64,000 nt of DNA from Thermodesulfomicrobium sp. WS (GTDB lineage Bacteria > Desulfobacterota > Desulfovibrionia > Desulfovibrionales > Desulfomicrobiaceae): positions 1,798,001-1,862,000 of the forward strand of contig NZ_AP027130.1 in assembly GCF_027925145.1 (NCBI RefSeq), in the 5' to 3' direction. Shown here piece by piece: positions 46,078 through 56,131 of the stretch. The position numbers and the translations under genes are program-made. Positions within the stretch are counted from its first letter, which is position 1; each line of letters begins with the position of its first letter. The notes below the pieces were generated by a model. It saw nothing but the letters and a program-made list of their open reading frames with translations, was not told the origin of the DNA and did not search any database.

Positions 46078-47751
46078 ATGTATCTTTCCGTCATCGTCAA
46101 TACCCTGGGGGGACTCGCGATTTTCGTCCTGGGGATGAAATTCATGACCGAAGGGCTGCAGATGTCCGCCGGCAACCGTATCCGCAATATCCTGCGTGCG
46201 GTGTCTTCCAACCGCATTTTGGGCTGCCTCACCGGGACGGTGGTCACGGCGATCATCCAGTCGTCGTCAGCCACCACGGTGATGGTCATCGGCTTTGTCA
46301 CCGCAGGGCTCATGACCTTGGAACAGGCCGTAGGCGTCATCATCGGCGCCAATATCGGCACCACCATGACCGCCCAGCTCATTGCCTTCAAGTTTGAGGC
46401 ACTGGCGCTGCCGGCCATCGCCATCGGCGTGCCCATGAAATTTTTCGCCACCCGCAAAAAATATCGATATGCTGGCGAAATTATCGCGGGATTTGGTCTG
46501 CTCTTCTTCGGCCTCTCACTCATGGGCGATGGGCTCAAGCCCCTGCGTACCGACCCCGCAGTGGTGGAGTTCTTCACCAAGTTCGACCCAGCCCATACCG
46601 GCGGCCTTATACTCTGCGTCCTCACCGGCGCGGTGGTGACCATGATCGTGCAGTCCTCCTCCGCCACCGTAGGTCTCACCATGACCCTCGCCACCCAGGG
46701 GCTCATCAGTTTGCCCGCAGCCATCGCCCTGGTGCTTGGCGAGAACATCGGCACCACGATCACGGCCCAGCTTGCCACCATCGGCTCCGGCAACGTGAAC
46801 AGCTACCGCGCCGCCAACGCCCACACCTTGTTCAACGTCCTGGGCGTCATCCTGGTCACCGCCATCTTTCCCTGGTTTTTGCAGGCAGTGGATTGGGTGA
46901 CGATCACCCTCATGCATGCCCCTGCCAACACCATGGTGGACGGGGCCTATCCGCATGCAGGCCGCTTCGTGGCCAATGCCCATACCCTGTTCAATGTCCT
47001 CAACGCAGTGATCTTTCTGACCTTCTTCCCGATTCTCATCAAGGTGACCCTCGCCCTCTCACCCAAAGACAAAGAGGCTGGAGATCCGCTCTTCCGCATG
47101 CCCCAATTCGACCAACGCACCCTAGACAACCCCGTTGCCGCCATGGCGCAGGTACGCGGCGAGATTTCCCACATGGCGGAAGTGGTCCGAGCGGCCTACT
47201 GCAATGCCATCGAAAGCATCATGCAGCACGACCACAAAAACATCCGCAAGTGGCAGCGCTTTGAGCGCCATATCGACGAAATGCACAAGACCCTCATGCT
47301 CGTGCTCACCCAGATCATGCAAAGTGAGATCAACGAGGAGGCATCGCAAGAGATCTCGGAGCAGATCCGCATCATCAACAACCTGGAGCGTATCGGGGAT
47401 GCGGTGGAGATCATCGCCATGCTGGGCGAAGACATCATGGACAAAGACATCCCCATGTCCCCCCAATCCTGGGAGGACCTCCAGACCATGCGCGAAAAGG
47501 TGGGCCAATTCCTGGACCTCATCCGCCAGGGGCTGCGCACCCCGCCGGCCAATTTCCTGGAGGAGGCGGAAATCCTGGAGGCATCCATTGACGCCCTGCG
47601 GGAGAATATCCGCTGTGCCTACATCGAGCGTCTCAAAAACGCCCAATGCTCCGTGGAGGGCGGCACCATCTTCATGAACATGATCACCCGCATGGAGAAA
47701 ATCGGCGACTGCTGCTTTACCATCGCCCGGGCTGTCACCCGGCAGGTCTAG
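46078..47751 (+). CDS. Na+/phosphate cotransporter with C-terminal PhoU-like domain
   Basis: The 557-residue protein has the two inverted Na/Pi-cotransporter repeats marked by IIQSSSATTVMVIGFV and MIVQSSSATVGLTMTLA. GANIGTTMTAQLIA and GENIGTTITAQLAT complete the repeats across about eight membrane helices. A helical PhoU-like C-terminal domain follows (about 370-557). It belongs to the NptA/YjbB (PNaS) family and moves phosphate using sodium. The ATG at 46078 directly follows GGGGGGAGC; an in-frame TTG upstream has no ribosome site. A strong bidirectional hairpin follows the stop. Confidence 0.9.
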   Translation: MYLSVIVNTLGGLAIFVLGMKFMTEGLQMSAGNRIRNILRAVSSNRILGCLTGTVVTAIIQSSSATTVMVIGFVTAGLMTLEQAVGVIIGANIGTTMTAQLIAFKFEALALPAIAIGVPMKFFATRKKYRYAGEIIAGFGLLFFGLSLMGDGLKPLRTDPAVVEFFTKFDPAHTGGLILCVLTGAVVTMIVQSSSATVGLTMTLATQGLISLPAAIALVLGENIGTTITAQLATIGSGNVNSYRAANAHTLFNVLGVILVTAIFPWFLQAVDWVTITLMHAPANTMVDGAYPHAGRFVANAHTLFNVLNAVIFLTFFPILIKVTLALSPKDKEAGDPLFRMPQFDQRTLDNPVAAMAQVRGEISHMAEVVRAAYCNAIESIMQHDHKNIRKWQRFERHIDEMHKTLMLVLTQIMQSEINEEASQEISEQIRIINNLERIGDAVEIIAMLGEDIMDKDIPMSPQSWEDLQTMREKVGQFLDLIRQGLRTPPANFLEEAEILEASIDALRENIRCAYIERLKNAQCSVEGGTIFMNMITRMEKIGDCCFTIARAVTRQV

Positions 47752-47766
47752 CGCCCTGGACGAACA

Positions 47767-47805
47767 ATACCCAAAAGGCGGGAGCCAGTCCCGCCTTTTG
47801 GGTAT
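47767..47805. terminator. bidirectional terminator between converging genes
   Basis: A 17-bp perfect stem (ATACCCAAAAGGCGGGA and its complement) with a GCCAG loop lies between the rightward Na/Pi gene and the leftward substrate-binding protein gene. Its AAAA/TTTT segments inside the stem supply T-tracts in both directions. Confidence 0.85.
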
Positions 47806-47825: not shown

Positions 47826-48788
47826 TTACTGATAGAGCTTGTCGGCGCGTCGGCGCACTGCCTCTGGAATCTCAAGCCCCATGGCCTTGGCGGCCTTGAG
47901 ATTCACATGCAAAATGAGCGCGTCCTGCCGCTCCACCGGAATTTCTCCCGGCGCCACGCCATCGACGAGGATACGACGCAGCATGCGGGCGGTCTGCTTG
48001 CCGTGGAGGTAGTAGTCGAAGGCCACCGCCGCCGCCGTGCCCCGGGCAACGGAGTCCACATCCGCGGAAAACACCGGGATCTTGGCCTCGGTCCCTACCT
48101 TGATGACCGACTCCAGGGTCGAGACCACCGTATTGTCCGTGGGGATATACATGGCGTCCACCTGCCCCACCAAGGACTTGGCCGCCTGATAGACATCGGC
48201 GGACTTGGTCACCCCGGCTTCCACCACTCTCCATCCCAGACGCTCGGCCTCGGCGCGCACGGCGTCCACCGTGGCGCGGGAGTTGGCCTCTCCGGTGCTG
48301 TAGATCACGCCCAAGCGGGTAAGCTTCGGCAGGCATTCCCGCACCAGGGCCAAATGCTTGTCCACCGGCAGCTTGTCGGAAACGCCGGTGATGTTCTTCC
48401 CAGGCCGCGCCAAGTCCTCCACCAACCCCGCCGCCACCGGATCGGTGATGGCCGTGAACACCAGCGGCACCCGGGCGAGCACCGGGGACTTCTTCACCGC
48501 CTGCGCGCAGGCCTGGGCCGACGGCGTGGCAATAGCCAGGACCAGATCAGGTTCTTCGCCGGCGATCTGGCCGGCGATCTGCACCGCGGTGGCCATGTTG
48601 CCCTGGGCGTTGTGCACCGCAAACTTGGCCACCACGCCCTGCTCCTGCAATCCATCCTGGACCCCGCGCAGCACGGCATCCAGCGAGGGATGCTCCACAA
48701 ACTGATTGACGGAAATGCGGTAGGTCTGCGCCGAGGCCGACGAGACCAGCATCAGGGCCCACAGAATACTCCACCAAAAGTATCGCAT
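47826..48788 (-). CDS. ABC transporter substrate-binding protein, TrpX-like, without transporter genes
   Basis: The 320-residue protein has a signal peptide (YFWWSILWALMLVSSASA, cleavage before QTYRI). The periplasmic binding fold of the ABC_sub_bind/TrpX group follows: VNQFVEHPSLDAVLRGVQDGL, IATPSAQACAQAVKK, PLVFTAITDPVAAGLV, ITGVSDKLPVDKHL, GVIYSTGEANS and DYYLHGKQTARMLRRIL. The ligand may be an aromatic amino acid or another small compound. No permease or ATPase gene is adjacent. It ends a four-gene run with a chemoreceptor, so it may present a ligand for sensing rather than uptake. Confidence 0.85.
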   Translation of the reverse strand: MRYFWWSILWALMLVSSASAQTYRISVNQFVEHPSLDAVLRGVQDGLQEQGVVAKFAVHNAQGNMATAVQIAGQIAGEEPDLVLAIATPSAQACAQAVKKSPVLARVPLVFTAITDPVAAGLVEDLARPGKNITGVSDKLPVDKHLALVRECLPKLTRLGVIYSTGEANSRATVDAVRAEAERLGWRVVEAGVTKSADVYQAAKSLVGQVDAMYIPTDNTVVSTLESVIKVGTEAKIPVFSADVDSVARGTAAAVAFDYYLHGKQTARMLRRILVDGVAPGEIPVERQDALILHVNLKAAKAMGLEIPEAVRRRADKLYQ

Positions 48789-48809
48789 CACTCCTCCATC
48801 TGGTTGTCG

Positions 48810-50417
48810 TTATGGACAAAGGCGCATCCACCCCCGGGCGGCAAACGGCGTTGCCACGCCGGGAGACAGCATGCTGGAAAGCCCAAGCTCCTGCCCCAAC
48901 GGGACCGGGTCCACGAGCCAAAAAGCCTGCAAGGCCCCGGAAAATTGCGGAACGATCCAATAGCGGCCAGCCGGGAGCGTGGCATTTTGGGGCCAGGCAA
49001 AGCGAACCCAACCGGGCTGCGTGGGGATATCCCGGGCCGCCACCGGGCGGGAAGCCAAAACCCGCTCTCCGGGACTGCCTGGGGCAGCGGTGCCGTTTGC
49101 GGTATCGGTAAAGATCTCCATCCACATCTGCCCGCGCCCACTGTGCCGCCACATGGCCAGCTCCACGAAGCCCAAGGATGCATTGGCATCCAGAGAAACC
49201 GGTTGCGCCAAAGCATGCAAGCGGTCTGTCAGCACCTGACGGGGGCGGAGAAAAATCTGCGGAGTCGCCTCCATGGCCTCCGGATGCAGCGCACGCCCCG
49301 GCCCATAGCGTGCCGGCACGGCGAGCGGAAACGCTTGCGGACATTGCGCTCGGGCAGGATGGGCATATTCCTTTCGGGGGCGCCAAGGTCGTTTTTTCGC
49401 CACAGGGGCAGGGAGCAGCAGCTGTGGCCCAGGGGACTCGGCACGCAGCGTAAGCCGTGTCTTGGGGACTTGCCCTGTAAGCTCCGCCTGCCAGGAAAAG
49501 CGCGGCGTCACCTGAACCCCGGCCACGTGCCGCCACCGCACCGCGGCCTGGGCCAGGGCCGAGGGGACGTCCACATCCACCACCAAAGGCACCCGCCCTG
49601 GAGGAAGCCAGCCTACCAGCCCGCGCACGTCCACCGGAAGCCAGCCCGTGTCCGGAAGCCACACTTCCACCCAGGCGGAAAGGCCCGAAAACCCAGGGAT
49701 GCGCCACGCCGTGCCGCCGCCTTCCACCACCATGTCCTGGCCGGCGTCCACGCCCAGCACCGCCCGGGCAGGCAAGCCGGCAGCGCGCAGCGCCGCCAGC
49801 CACGCGTGCACCAGGCCCGATATGTCACCGCTTCCCTGGCGCAGTACGGTGGTACTGTCCTCCACCACCTGGGCAGGACGAAACCCCCATTGCCCGCGCA
49901 CCCAGGCGGCCACGTCCACCACGGCCTGCACCGCGCTTGCCGCGCCGGCCACCACGGGCTGCACCTGGGCGCGCATGGCGGCAGGGTCCACCCACGGGGT
50001 TGCCGCCACAAACGGCGCAGCCTCAGCGGCGATGGTCTCCAAGGGATAGGCGGCAGAGGCCTCAAGCGGCGTGGTCTGGGTGGTCATGCGCACCGGGATG
50101 CGCACTTCCACCTGCACCTGTGGGCGCTGGTGGTGCCACTGCATGGCCACGCTCCCGGCCTCCTGCTTGTGCCATGCAGGATTGGGGGTTGCGGAAATGG
50201 ACGGTGCTCCCACAGTGAGCTGCCATCCCCACCCCTGCCGGGGGACAAGAAGCGGCAGGCGGAGGTCCAGGCGGGTCACCCGCTCCAGATCCTCCGCGCG
50301 CCACGTCATCACCCAGGTCCCGGTCCACGTCCCAGCGCCCCCGTCCACGGCCATGACCCCAGCATAGGCGCTGGGAGCTATGGCACAAAACAGCGCAAGG
50401 ACGAAAACCGGTACCAT
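48810..50417 (-). CDS. secreted transglutaminase-fold protein lacking the catalytic Cys and His
   Basis: The 535-residue protein has a signal peptide (VPVFVLALFCAIAPSAYA). The central transglutaminase-like core reads GDISGLVHAWLAALRAAGLPARAVLGVD, then GLSAWVEVWLPDTGWLPVDVRG. Aligned by eye to the family, the catalytic Cys position holds Ile, the catalytic His position holds Ser, and only the Asp remains. It is therefore probably a binding or structural protein. A C-terminal region of about 200 residues is unrecognised. The ATG at 50417 has GAGG five bases upstream; GTG at 50423 would overlap the chemoreceptor stop. Confidence 0.7.
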   Translation of the reverse strand: MVPVFVLALFCAIAPSAYAGVMAVDGGAGTWTGTWVMTWRAEDLERVTRLDLRLPLLVPRQGWGWQLTVGAPSISATPNPAWHKQEAGSVAMQWHHQRPQVQVEVRIPVRMTTQTTPLEASAAYPLETIAAEAAPFVAATPWVDPAAMRAQVQPVVAGAASAVQAVVDVAAWVRGQWGFRPAQVVEDSTTVLRQGSGDISGLVHAWLAALRAAGLPARAVLGVDAGQDMVVEGGGTAWRIPGFSGLSAWVEVWLPDTGWLPVDVRGLVGWLPPGRVPLVVDVDVPSALAQAAVRWRHVAGVQVTPRFSWQAELTGQVPKTRLTLRAESPGPQLLLPAPVAKKRPWRPRKEYAHPARAQCPQAFPLAVPARYGPGRALHPEAMEATPQIFLRPRQVLTDRLHALAQPVSLDANASLGFVELAMWRHSGRGQMWMEIFTDTANGTAAPGSPGERVLASRPVAARDIPTQPGWVRFAWPQNATLPAGRYWIVPQFSGALQAFWLVDPVPLGQELGLSSMLSPGVATPFAARGWMRLCP

Positions 50418-50419
50418 GA

Positions 50420-52084
50420 TCACCTCGTCTTGAAGGTGCGCACCAAGGCCTCCAGCTCTTTGGCGAGCGCAAGCAAACTCTGCGCGCTGGCCTTGGTCTG
50501 ATGTCCCTGCTCGGTCATGAGCGCCGCCGACTGGCGAACACTGCCCATCTCGCCGGCCACTTGGGCCACGCCATCGGTGGTGCGCGCCACATTGGCGCTC
50601 ACTTCCTGCAAGCCCACCGAGGCCTGGCTGATATTGTCCACGATGTCACGGGTGGTCACACTCTGCTCTTCCACCGCAGCGGCGATGGTGGCCACGATGG
50701 CGTCGATGTCACCGATGACCCCGCGGATCTGCTCGATGCGGCCCACCGTGGTATCCGTGGCCGACTGGATGCCTGCGATCTTCTCCCGGATCTCCTCCGT
50801 GGCGCGGGCGGTCTGGTTGGCCAGTTCTTTGATCTCATTGGCCACCACCGCGAAACCGCGGCCCGCCTCACCGGCCCGGGCCGCCTCGATGGTGGCGTTG
50901 AGGGCGAGGAGATTGGTCTGGGAGGAAATGGCGGTAATGGCCTCGGTGACGGAATGGATCTGGGCCGCCACCTGGCCCAAGCGGTCCACGTCCGCACCTG
51001 CCGCCGTGGCCGTTTCCACGGCGCCGGCAGTAATGCCTTTGGCGCGACTGGCATTGCGGGCGATTTCCTCGATGGTGGCGCTCATCTCCTCCGAGGCCGC
51101 CGCCACGGTGGAGATGTTCACCGTGGCCTCTTCCGTGGCCGCAGCCACAGAGCGCATATCCCCGGCAATGCCGTCTGCAGCCTGGGCCACACGGGCTGAA
51201 CGCGTCTCGTTGTCCGCCGCCACCTCGGCCACCGCTTGGGCCACACCATCAAGCTGCTGCGAGGTGCCAGCCAAGGTCTCCACACCGGAGCGTATCTCAC
51301 CTAAAAGGTCCCGCAAACGGGCGGCCATGGTGTTCACACTGCAGGCCAGCTGCCCCACTTCATCCTGACTAGTGACCGGCACTTCCACGGTGAGGTCTCC
51401 CGCGCTTACCTGGGCTGTAGCCTCCGCCACCCGAGCAAGCGGGCGCACCACCGAGACACGCAAAAATATGGAGAGCACCAGCAACAGAACCACCATGCCC
51501 GCGACAAAAAGGCCAGCCATCATGCCCTGCGAAGTACGCAACGCCCCCATCTGCGCCGAAATATCCTGACGCATCACCATGGCCCCAAGAATGGGCTGCG
51601 AACTCCCATGGCAATGGTGACACTCCGGGGCATTGGGCACGGAACGGACCTCGAGGAAATACGGGGAGCCGTCCAGCTCCACCATTCCTCCGTGCATGCC
51701 CACGGTGCGCAGCCGTTCCTGGACCATGGTCTGGACTGCGGGGTACGGCAATGGCTTCGACAGGGGCTGGCGCAGGGTATCCCCCTTGGTGGCGTAGGTG
51801 ATCTCGCCTTTGGAATTGGTGAGGTACACTTCCACATCGCGATATTTGGCGGCAATCTCGGCAAATTTTTCCGTCGTGCCTTCGTTGTCACCAATGCTCA
51901 TGGGTTTGGCGATGGCCATGTGGATGAGTTCCCCCATGCGCTCTGCGCCATGTTCGATTTCTGCAAGACTCGCCCGGCGCTGATTCCACGAGGCCACCAT
52001 GAGGAGCAGGCCAAAGACCACCACCAACACCCCAGAGGTAATGGCCATAAGCTTGGCGCCCAAAGAACGCTTGAAGATATCCAT
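50420..52084 (-). CDS. methyl-accepting chemotaxis protein with a c-type haem motif in its periplasmic domain (DcrA-like)
   Basis: The 554-residue receptor has a first membrane helix (about 10-32), a periplasmic domain, a second helix (about 180-205), a HAMP domain ([27 protein letters not shown]) and a methyl-accepting signalling domain. The signalling tip reads [41 protein letters not shown]. The periplasmic domain contains CHHCH at residues 155-159, a CxxCH haem c attachment site. The Desulfovibrio receptor DcrA is known to carry such a haem and to sense oxygen or redox state. It lies 10 bases after a tetrahaem cytochrome gene. Confidence 0.9.
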
Positions 52085-52094
52085 GGCCAGCTTC

Positions 52095-52550
52095 CTAGTG
52101 CCCGCCGCTATAGAGGGTGGGTTTGAAACCAAAAGCCCGCACCCGCTCCGGGGTGTGGCACCCCATGCAGTCCTCCACGCGAATGGCCCCGCGGCCTTTG
52201 ATAAGAGAAACATCGCCGCCGGATTCCACATGCGCCCCGCCCGGACCATGACACACTTCACAGCCCGCGTCGGCCAAATCTGGAGTCTTTTCAAAACTCA
52301 CGAAGCCGCCCGGCTGGCCATAGCCTGTGGTATGGCACGCAAAGCAGCTCTTGAGTTCCTCTGCCGTGAGGTCTGAGGCCATCTGCTGCACTGTCCGACT
52401 GGAGTGGGCCTTTTTGCTGTTCTGCCTGTAGCTGGCGTATTGCGCCTCATGGCAATCGACACAGGCCTGACTTCCCACATAGCGGTTCTCCTGGGCAAAC
52501 GCTGGAAAGGCCAGGCCGAGAACCAAACCTGCCAACAAAATCCAACGCAT
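52095..52550 (-). CDS. periplasmic tetrahaem cytochrome c (c554-like)
   Basis: The 151-residue protein has a signal peptide ([19 protein letters not shown]). Four CxxCH haem sites follow: CVDCH (about residue 30), CFACH, CEVCH and CMGCH. The [11 protein letters not shown]...SKKAHSSR opening and the TTGYG...[12 protein letters not shown] pattern resemble the cytochrome c554 family. It is probably an electron carrier in the periplasm. I chose the second ATG (52550), which has GGAG at good spacing. It is first in the run leading to the haem chemoreceptor and may deliver electrons to it. Confidence 0.87.
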
Positions 52551-52609: not shown

Positions 52610-54019
52610 TCAATATGACACACCAAGGGCTTCGCCCTGGGCCTCCAACCACATCTCCAAGGCCGCCATCTGCTGGGCCACGGCTGCCGGTCCAGTACCC
52701 CCGGGGGTATTGCGCCGGGAAACAGCAGCCTCGAAACGCAGGGCGTCGAACACCTCCGGCCCGGCCTTGGGGGCGTAGCGCTGGATCTCCTCCAGAGACA
52801 AGTCCTCCAGCCCCACCCCCTTGCCTTCCGCGTAGGCCACCACGGCGCCGGTCTGGTGGTGGGCGTCGCGAAACGGCACGCCGCGAGTCACCAAGTAGTC
52901 CGCCAGCTCCGTAGCATTGATATATCCCCGCTGCAGCGCACGGGTCATGGCTTCGGGCACAAACTCCATGGACGCCATCATGCCGGCAAGCAGCCGCACC
53001 GAGGCATGCACCGTGGCGTGGGCGTCCAAGAGCGGTGCCTTGTCTTCCTGCAAATCGCGGTTGTACGTAAGCGGCAGTCCCTTCATCATGGTCAAGAGGG
53101 CGACCAAATCGCCATACACCCGTCCGGTCTTGCCCCGCATGAGCTCCGCCACATCGGGATTTTTTTTCTGCGGCATAATGGAAGAACCGGTGCTGTAGGC
53201 ATCCGGAAGGCGCACAAAGCCCAATTGGGGATTGGCCCAGATGATGATTTCCTCGCACAGCCGACTGGCATGCATCATGATGATGCTGGCGCAGCACACC
53301 GCCTCCACCAGAAAGTCCCGATCCGCCACGGCGTCCATGCTATTGGCGAAGACGGCCCCAAACCCCACTTCCGCGGCAACGGCCGCCGGGTCCAGGGGAT
53401 AGGTGGTTCCCGCCAGCGCCGCCGCCCCCAAAGGCGAAACCTCCACCCGGGGGAGCAAGCCGTCGATGCGCTCCACGTCCCGCCGGAACATCTGGGCATA
53501 GGCAAGGAGGTGATGGGCAAGGCTCACCGGTTGGGCAGGCTGGAAATGGGTGCAACCTGGAAGCAGCGTCTCGCAGTGCTCCTTGGCCCGCGCCAGCAGC
53601 ACGCCGATGAGCTCCACCAGCGCCTGCCGCCACTGGCGCACGAATTTCGCCGTGGCCAGGCGGGTATCGAGCAGGGTCTGGTCGTTGCGGGAGCGGCCGG
53701 TATGGAGTTTTCGGCCCGGCTCGCCAATGAGCTCCACAAGCCGGGTCTCGATGTTCATGTGCACGTCTTCCAGGGACTCCCGCCACGGGAAAGTGCCGGC
53801 GCGGATTTCATCGGCAACGCGGTCGAGTCCCTCCACGATGGCCTGGGCCTCGGCCTCGGAGAGAATGCCCTGACGGGCGAGCATACGGGCGTGCGCCTTG
53901 GAGCCGGCGATATCCTCCATGGCCAGGTGCCGGTCCACATCCAAGGAGCAGGTGTAGCGCTCCACTTCCGGGGCCGTGGCCTCGGCAAAGCGCCCTCCCC
54001 AGGGTTTGGCCTGGCTCAC
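52610..54019 (-). CDS. argH: argininosuccinate lyase
   Basis: ArgH splits argininosuccinate into arginine and fumarate. The 469-residue protein has [83 protein letters not shown] and the fumarase-superfamily loop [21 protein letters not shown]. The start is a GTG overlapping the argG stop as GTGA. Order on the transcript is argF-argG-argH. Confidence 0.96.
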
Positions 54020-55221
54020 GACCGGCCTCCAAGCCCCGCCTGGGCCATGAGGCGCAAGCCATGCAGGCGGATAAAGCCCGCAGCGTCCGCTTGGTTGTAG
54101 ACCTCATCGCGCTCGAAGGTGGCAAGGTCGGGGTTGTAGAGCGAGCACGGGGAAGTCCGGCCCACCGGATATACCCCGCCCTTGTAGAGGCGCAGACGCA
54201 CTTCACCGGTGACCCGCTCGCTGGCCTTGTCCATGAAGGCTTGCAGGGCCTCGCGCTCCGGGGAGAACCAAAAGCCGTTGTACACCATCTCGGCGTAGCG
54301 GGGAACGAGGCTGTCGCGCAGGTGGAGCAGTTCCCGGTCCATGGTGATGCCTTCCAGGTCGCGCCGGGCGCGGTAGATGATGGTGCCTCCGGGGGTCTCG
54401 TACACCCCGCGGGACTTGATGCCCACGAAGCGGTTTTCCACCATGTCCAAGCGGCCGATGCCGTGCTTGCCGCCCAAGGCGTTGAGACGCTCGAAGATGC
54501 CTGCTGGCGAGAGGCGCTCGCCGTTCACCGCCACGGGATCTCCGGCCTCGAAGACGATGGTGACTTCCTCCGGGGTGTCCGGGGCCTTTTCGGGCGGCAC
54601 GCACAAAAGATACGTCCCCGGTCCGGGTTCTCTGGCCGGGTCTTCCAGTTCCCCGCCCTCGAAGCTCAAATGCAGGAGATTGCGGTCACAGGAATAGGGC
54701 TTGGCCTCGGTTACGGGCACGGGGATGCCGTGCTCGCGGCAAAAGGCGAGGATGTCCGTGCGCGAGCGCAGCGACCACTCCCGCCACGGGGCGATGGTGC
54801 GGATCTGCGGGGCCAGGGCCATGACCGAAAGCTCGAAGCGCACCTGGTCGTTGCCTTTGCCTGTGGCGCCGTGGGCCACGGCCTGGGCGCCCTCGGCCAG
54901 GGCGATCTCCACCAGTTTCTTGGCGATGAGCGGCCGGGCGATGGAGGTGCCCAGCAGATAGCCGCCCTCGTACACCGCAGCGGCGCGCATCATGGGAAAG
55001 ACGTAGTCCCGGGCGAACTCCTCCCGCAAATCCACCACGTAGGCCTTGGTGGCCCCGGTGGCCCGGGCCTTGTCCTCGATGCCGGAGAGCTCCTCTCCCT
55101 GACCCAAATCCGCAGTCATGGTGATGACTTCGCACTCGTAGGTCACGGCCAGCCATTTGAGGATGGCGGACGTATCCAAGCCGCCCGAATAGGCGAGCAC
55201 AATCTTTTTGATATCACTCAT
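54016..55221 (-). CDS. argG: argininosuccinate synthase
   Basis: ArgG joins citrulline and aspartate at the expense of ATP. The 401-residue protein has the N-type ATP motif [96 protein letters not shown] and [14 protein letters not shown]. Start at 55221 chosen; it overlaps the argF stop by 8 bases. A longer upstream frame is a shadow of argF. Confidence 0.96.
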
Positions 55222-56131
55222 AGGTCGTATTCTCCTGCGCAAAGATCCATTCCAAGATGGCCTTTTGAATGTGGAGACGGTTTTCCGCCTGATCGAACAC
55301 AATGGACTGCGGGCCTTCGAAGACCTCCTCGCTCACCTCTTCGCCGCGGTGCGCGGGCAGGCAATGGAGAAACTTGGCCTGCGGATGGGCAAGGGCCATG
55401 AGCGCGGCATCCACCTGAAAGCCGGAAAACGCGGCAAGCCGTGCTCCGGCCTCGGCTTCCTGCCCCATGGAGGCCCACACATCGGTGTTCACGTAATGGG
55501 CCCCACGCACCGCGGCCTTGGGGTCGTGTCCCAGTTCCAGCCGGGCGCCGGCGGCGCGGGCCGCGGCCACCACCTGGGCGTCGGGCTCGAATCCCGCCGG
55601 GGTGGCCAGACGCAAGGTAAAGCCAAAGAGCGCGGCGGCCTCGATCCAGGAATGGGCCATGTTGTTGCCGTCCCCCACCCAGGCCACGATGAGCGACCCA
55701 AGGTCAGGCGTGCGCTCGTACATGGTGAGCACGTCGCAGAGTACCTGGCAGGGATGAAGCAGATCGCTGAGGGCATTGATCACCGGGATGGAGCCGAAGC
55801 GGGCGAGCTCTTCCAGATTGGCCTGGGCAAAGGTACGCACCACCAGCCCGTCCACATAACGCGAAAGCACCCGGGCGGTGTCGCGCAGGGGCTCACTTCG
55901 GCCCAGTTGCGAGTCCGCCGGAGTAAGAAAGATGGTGGACCCGCCCAAATGGCGCACCGCCACCTCAAAAGACACCCGTGTCCGGGTGGAGGCCTTTTCA
56001 AAAATCAGGGCAATGGTCTTGCCCGAAAGCTGCTCCGAGCGGAAATTCTCCGCCTTCATGACCGCGCCGCGGCGCACCAGGGCCATGGCGGTCTGTGCCG
56101 ACAGGTCTGCAAAGGAAAGAAAATGCTTCAT
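55214..56131 (-). CDS. argF: ornithine carbamoyltransferase
   Basis: ArgF makes citrulline from ornithine and carbamoyl phosphate. The 305-residue protein has the carbamoyl-phosphate loop [93 protein letters not shown] and the ornithine-site [11 protein letters not shown]. It is first in argFGH and lies 67 bases downstream of the lipoprotein gene. Confidence 0.96.

Follow-up and report, generated by a model that had tools for sequence, protein, structure and literature searches.

A tetrahaem cytochrome gene kept beside haem-c receptor genes across the Desulfobacterota

The signal perceived by haem-c chemoreceptors such as DcrA and GSU0582/GSU0935 has been debated since 1994, and redox state, oxygen, and nitric oxide (NO) have all been proposed. 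In GSU0582 and GSU0935, switching of the distal haem ligand (Met60) is linked to redox state and was seen without any added gas (reviewed in PMC8396549). A 2026 preprint (Deshpande et al., PMC12889525) places domains of this kind in the Cache superfamily as sCache_heme (DUF3365/Tll0287), and describes a signalling member that binds NO tightly, releases it slowly, forms no stable complex with oxygen, and acts as an NO sensor. Here we analyze a locus in Thermodesulfomicrobium sp. WS (Desulfomicrobiaceae), in a window of 64,000 nucleotides (positions 1,798,001 to 1,862,000 of NZ_AP027130.1), in which four minus-strand genes encode a tetrahaem cytochrome of the c554 type, a haem-c methyl-accepting chemotaxis receptor, an exported pseudo-transglutaminase, and a TrpX-like substrate-binding protein of the ATP-binding cassette (ABC) type. 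An earlier note, made from the sequence alone, had read all four as one dedicated periplasmic sensing module. We find that the conserved unit is smaller, consisting of the cytochrome and receptor genes. The type of receptor is already known; what appears to be new is its partnership with a separate tetrahaem cytochrome, which extends across the phylum and does not depend on the output domain of the receptor.

The first of the four genes encodes a member of the c554 family (73.4 bits against PF13435, cut-off 20.8, E 2.9e-20), and its profile matches the solved c554 structures 1BVB (6.5e-14) and 6I5B. Its four CXXCH motifs bear out its first description as a tetrahaem cytochrome, and exactly four such motifs are found in 83 of 83 related cytochromes. 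Outside of the haem motifs only His107, His151, and Met57 are near-invariant, suggesting that at least one haem may be without a fixed distal ligand. An open haem site is known among c554-type cytochromes from that of Nitrosomonas, the pattern of the family being one five-coordinate and three bis-His haems.

The second gene encodes a receptor with a haem site of its own, as had been noticed: a single CHHCH motif in the periplasmic domain accompanies the HAMP and MCPsignal domains. All of the 90 related sensors first fetched contain exactly one CXXCH, mostly in the form CHHCH (59 sensors) or CYHCH (28). A profile built from 66 sensors matches, among natural solved proteins, only 3B47 (GSU0582) and 3B42 (GSU0935), with E values of 1.5e-4 and 1.8e-3, its other matches being weak ones to designed helical proteins. 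In the AlphaFold model of the sensor domain (pLDDT 94.3), the CHHCH motif lies in a helix (residues 153-159) between strands 140-150 and 165-174, and the best Foldseek matches of this model are the Cache domain of WalK and 3B42. The single receptor sequence scores 15.2 against PF11845, under the cut-off of 24.1, and a Pfam scan found no cytoplasmic PAS domain in it. By its CXXCH, its Cache fold, and its sequence matches, the receptor is of the GSU0582/GSU0935, or sCache_heme, kind. Met62 is present in 66 of the 66 aligned sensors and aligns with the Met60 region of GSU0935; a redox-linked methionine switch is therefore plausible in the receptor of the window, judging from the alignment.

Across the Desulfovibrionales, the receptor gene is nearly always preceded by the cytochrome gene. 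We surveyed 150 genomes of this order, searching separately with the cytochrome (134 loci) and with the sensor domain of the receptor (141 loci). Of the 134 cytochrome genes, 119 immediately precede a sensor gene on their own strand, with a median gap of 20 bases between the two matches; of the 103 genomes with a cytochrome gene, 100 carry such a pair. In a survey of the phylum (297 genomes), we picked by hand from the result tables 42 loci beyond the order at which the cytochrome looked like a stand-alone protein; cytochrome domains within frames of roughly 400 residues or longer, similar to the UshA-like fusion NF041198, were excluded. The 42 loci were then checked against the stronger of the sensor matches. 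All but two of these stand-alone cytochromes (40 of 42) adjoin a sensor gene. The genes flanking the pair differ among lineages, with none common to more than a few, indicating that the pair has stayed together through rearrangement. Simple inherited synteny as the cause of the pairing was rejected, since the flanks vary and the pair recurs in other classes. As a separate observation, c554-type domains also occur within larger proteins (about 400-500 residues) akin to the UshA-like (seleno)protein family NF041198, in many genomes of the phylum (examples in Table 1).

The output of the sensor varies, from chemoreceptor to histidine kinase to hybrid kinase with response-regulator domains, whereas the cytochrome is constant. 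Kinase-type partners are found at one locus within the order and at seven loci outside it; the pairing tracks the sensor domain, not the output domain. Histidine kinases with this haem sensor domain and no cytochrome gene beside them occur at seven further loci, in two genera whose genomes keep a paired chemoreceptor as well. Eighteen genomes carry two intact pairs, and in these the cytochrome and sensor paralogues co-sort in 113 of 153 genome comparisons, as against 76.5 (standard deviation 6.1) under random label swaps inside each genome. Such co-sorting points to inheritance as a unit, and is by itself no proof of contact. Both members were kept in the seven genomes examined in which one pair is split over the chromosome.

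Further evidence on the function of these receptors comes from their neighbors. We scanned the fetched loci for signature motifs of rubredoxin, desulfoferrodoxin/superoxide reductase, and flavodiiron protein. Of the 85 loci with sufficient sequence, 35 have such an oxygen-defence gene no more than 3 kb beyond the sensor, on its downstream side. The rubredoxin motif occurs 35 times downstream of the sensor, always on its strand, and 0 times upstream; two flavodiiron genes near sensors were confirmed by Pfam. These neighbors follow one receptor subfamily in the Desulfovibrionaceae, linking it to oxygen defence, and are found in 0 of the 28 members of a second paralogue group. In the sensor tree, the branch of the window falls outside this supported 28-member group, and its placement with the rubredoxin-linked group lacks support; 62 unlabelled rows do not enter the counts of group changes on the tree (one change), and we draw no rubredoxin clade from these counts. 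By pairwise identity, 16 of 20 comparisons put the receptor of the window nearer the rubredoxin-linked group than the second paralogue.

In one genus, five lone sensors show the order receptor, desulfoferrodoxin, rubredoxin, with Roo also present at one of them. We take the gene order in Desulfovibrio vulgaris to be dcrA-rbo-rub-roo, which matches the order at these lone sensors; rbo and rub of D. vulgaris are DVU3183 and DVU3184. A cytoplasmic PAS domain, such as DcrA is described as having, is found in the only one of the five lone sensors that was scanned with Pfam, and in all four scanned chemoreceptors of the rubredoxin-linked type. The receptor of the window is presumably an orthologue of DcrA, with indirect support from the neighborhood and architecture of its relatives. 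For D. gigas, a putative oxygen sensory operon around neelaredoxin has reportedly been described (Silva and colleagues in 1999, going by the title). In two genera (seven loci, the five above among them), the receptor beside rubredoxin and superoxide reductase has lost the cytochrome gene next to it, while the genome retains a lone cytochrome gene at another place.

The near-constant position of the cytochrome gene ahead of the receptor gene suggests that the cytochrome supplies the signal of the receptor. Our preferred reading, to which we assign a probability of about one half, is that the core of the locus is a two-gene periplasmic redox receptor in which a dedicated cytochrome sets the state of the haem. 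This small tetrahaem protein of the periplasm would trade electrons on one side with the electron pool there, or with the local chemistry of oxygen, reactive oxygen species, or NO, and on the other, through contact and presumably as donor, with the one c-type haem that the receptor carries. The redox state of that haem would alter the sensor domain, probably via binding and release of Met62, as for GSU0582/GSU0935, and the change could pass through HAMP to the domain for chemotaxis signalling and so direct the cell out of oxidising zones. Among relatives, the cytochrome-sensor pair would drive histidine kinases instead. A link between cytochrome and receptor had been suggested from this locus alone; the association itself now stands, the pair being kept across order and phylum despite changing neighbors and outputs, and the electron transfer remains the conjectural part of it. 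More tentatively, haem-c Cache receptors throughout the Desulfobacterota may have the soluble tetrahaem cytochrome as their dedicated input subunit, in a split receptor for which electron flow, not ligand binding, would be the signal for chemotaxis and histidine-kinase outputs alike.

Several observations weigh against a redox receptor fed by its cytochrome. At least 16 of the fetched family sensors, some of them histidine kinases, have no adjacent cytochrome, and the sensor evidently can work alone. Oxygen-defence neighbors are absent at the pair of the window and in its family. The cytochrome and the sensor are both net negative on average. Electrostatic complementarity of the two is accordingly unsupported, their charges correlating positively, a correlation that probably stems from genome-wide composition. 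Finally, tight NO binding by a signalling member of the same domain family (PMC12889525) offers a signal that needs no cytochrome.

The two remaining genes are recent local additions that are not needed for the core pair. In the pseudo-transglutaminase, three aligned orthologues have GDI for the expected GDC, and GLSAW or GLVPW at the expected catalytic histidine. The Cys-His-Asp triad of PF01841 is thus broken in all three known orthologues (Cys to Ile, His to Ser or Val), confirming that the catalytic cysteine and histidine have been lost. Strong matches are found only within the genus of the window, where the four-gene order recurs in the one congener with the set on a single contig. Structure prediction gave no usable model (pLDDT 37 from three sequences). 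The pseudo-transglutaminase is a lineage-specific exported protein.

The binding protein, the sole complete PF04392 protein of the genome, does not reach the TrpX equivalog cut-off of NCBIfam NF041285 (261.8 bits against 390). It had been taken for an orphan, and indeed no transporter genes adjoin it, but the genome does encode a 62%-identical permease together with an ATPase 133 kb off (Table 1), without a binding protein there; with such a cognate TrpXYZ-type pair present, the orphan status was rejected. In the other families examined, orthologues of the binding protein (57-62% identical to that of the window) mostly adjoin a permease and an ATPase, with one exception in which they lie apart. 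Such a pair beside the binding protein elsewhere is what the earlier note had named as evidence against its module. Most likely, the binding-protein gene has moved and its product still serves the distant TrpXYZ-type permease. Given this permease/ATPase pair in other families and in this genome, the proposed role of one or two binding proteins as co-sensors is weak; an added sensing role is possible, since a histidine kinase of this genome uses PF04392 as its sensor domain. That kinase, which is rich in PAS domains and carries PF04392 as its N-terminal sensor, is encoded near position 1104505 of the chromosome. At six Desulfomicrobium loci an amidohydrolase gene (PF01979 in the two scanned) comes after the binding-protein gene, and may hint at the ligand of the binding protein.

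The four-gene set is likewise not the unit of conservation. The full set is found only in the genus of the window, and the combination of cytochrome, receptor, and binding protein only in the Desulfomicrobiaceae; the four-gene module was rejected on these grounds.

Among other explanations of the pair, the receptor haem might sense a gas directly (NO, possibly carbon monoxide or oxygen), with the cytochrome as a neighboring periplasmic reductase or scavenger of the same gas. The NO chemistry of the sCache_heme protein, with its slow release and lack of a stable oxygen complex (PMC12889525), would fit this explanation, as would the flavodiiron genes that come after the pair in relatives, since Roo of D. 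gigas also reduces NO (PMC4287179), and the cytochrome haem that may be without a fixed distal ligand. However, ligand switching in GSU0582/GSU0935 is redox-linked and takes place with no gas added (PMC8396549), direct binding of a gas needs no obligate pairing with one specific cytochrome, and the desulfoferrodoxin near sensors in relatives handles superoxide, not NO. We consider direct gas sensing unlikely. The same oxygen-defence genes also bear on co-regulation, in which both genes would belong to an oxygen-stress regulon and their products act independently; rubredoxin, superoxide reductase, and flavodiiron genes are nearby in many relatives, and the close spacing of cytochrome and receptor implies co-transcription. 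But the pair is also found where the stress genes are missing, next to unrelated flanks, and in further classes of the phylum; it stays constant as the other members of the regulon come and go, which makes co-regulation alone unlikely as well, and slightly more so.

A four-protein sensing unit, in which the binding protein and the pseudo-transglutaminase present ligands to the receptor, would account for the gaps of only 10, 2, and 21 bases, for the order repeated in the single-contig congener, and for the binding-protein gene directly following the receptor gene in ten of the thirteen Desulfomicrobium genomes with a binding-protein gene. It would also agree with the use of PF04392 as a kinase sensor in this genome. 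Most of the order, however, has the pair without both extra genes, the pseudo-transglutaminase is restricted to one genus, and the partnerless permease and ATPase of this genome, like the transporter genes that adjoin the binding protein in other families, point to transport, leaving such a unit improbable. The constant order, cytochrome first and receptor second, would also suit a cytochrome that aids maturation or stability of the receptor, for instance haem loading or folding, and not signalling. Yet haem loading is the work of general cytochrome c maturation systems, other members of the family were produced in Escherichia coli with such a system and without a cytochrome partner (PMC12889525), and sensors without an adjacent cytochrome exist; we give a maturation role hardly any credence.

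The chromosome that carries the locus is complete (2.36 Mb), and the open reading frame coordinates reproduce exactly the leftward arrangement and gaps given in the earlier note (Table 1). Its statement that all four products are exported or have periplasmic domains also holds: signal peptides were recognized by eye in the cytochrome, the pseudo-transglutaminase, and the binding protein, and the periplasmic domain of the receptor is flanked by two membrane helices. A strong hairpin after the last gene separates the set from a convergent gene with its end at 47751. Upstream on the same strand lie argF-argG-argH, and the cytochrome gene starts 59 bases past argH; a search of the region for a sigma-70-like promoter found none. 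Since argH is also upstream in one Desulfomicrobium locus and in one congener, the gene set may be transcribed through from the arg genes.

Table 1. Coordinates of features at the locus and of related features elsewhere (positions are those of the window unless a genome and contig are given).
Feature	Position	Strand	Remarks
Four open reading frames of the set	52550-52095, 52084-50420, 50417-48810, 48788-47826	-	gaps of 10, 2, and 21 bases
Tetrahaem c554-type cytochrome	52095..52550	-	151 aa; signal peptide; four CXXCH; first gene of conserved pair
Haem-c methyl-accepting chemotaxis receptor	50420..52084	-	554 aa; HAMP 1.1e-16, MCPsignal 2.6e-32
Periplasmic Cache/PAS-like haem domain of receptor	51530..51988	-	residues ~33-185; profile, model, fold search
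CHHCH haem-c attachment site of receptor	51608..51622	-	residues 155-159; motif
Met62 of receptor, candidate distal haem ligand	51899..51901	-	invariant; aligns with Met60 region of GSU0935
Exported pseudo-transglutaminase	48810..50417	-	PF01841 core 2.2e-17; catalytic Cys and His lost
TrpX-like ABC substrate-binding protein	47826..48788	-	PF04392 4.3e-86; follows pseudo-transglutaminase
Strong hairpin	47767..47805	-	after last gene of set; RNA fold -36.4 kcal/mol, z -5.2
arg genes upstream of set	54016-56131 and 52610-54019	-	
Permease and ATPase	G000:C1:1712156-1713820		
c554-type domain inside larger proteins, examples	G258:C56:2201-2590, G379:C78:1154-1552		

A literature search on dcrA with rubredoxin, tetrahaem cytochromes with chemotaxis, and c554 with sensors did not find the cytochrome-receptor pair described, although most subscription papers lay outside this search and a prior mention is possible. 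A cytochrome gene kept with the receptor gene across the phylum and through changes of output offers a specific electron-donor candidate, and brings the redox hypothesis for haem-c chemoreceptors within direct experimental reach.

Compared with described systems, the receptor resembles sCache_heme proteins in its Cache fold, in the placing of the CXXCH on a short helix after the third strand and before the fourth, and in its fusion to HAMP and signalling domains; it differs in scoring below the PF11845 cut-off and in its separate tetrahaem partner, for which no counterpart was found in the accessible part of the sCache_heme description (PMC12889525). GSU0582/GSU0935 of Geobacter sulfurreducens share the haem domain by profile and fold, the architecture of a methyl-accepting chemotaxis protein, and a candidate distal methionine in the same region, whereas the reports consulted on them name no dedicated cytochrome partner. 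DcrA of D. vulgaris Hildenborough is likewise a periplasmic c-type haem chemoreceptor of a sulfate reducer, but the receptor of the window has no PAS domain, lies in an arg neighborhood, and is preceded by a cytochrome. As in TrpXYZ-type transporters (TrpX 3LFT, CD0873 6HNI), relatives of the binding protein adjoin a permease and an ATPase, while here the binding-protein gene stands apart from those genes, behind the receptor. Cytochrome c554 of Nitrosomonas europaea (1BVB) shares with the cytochrome of the window the family PF13435, the profile match, and four haems, but is 211 aa long as against about 130 aa in the mature protein here, which is encoded as a pair with a sensor.

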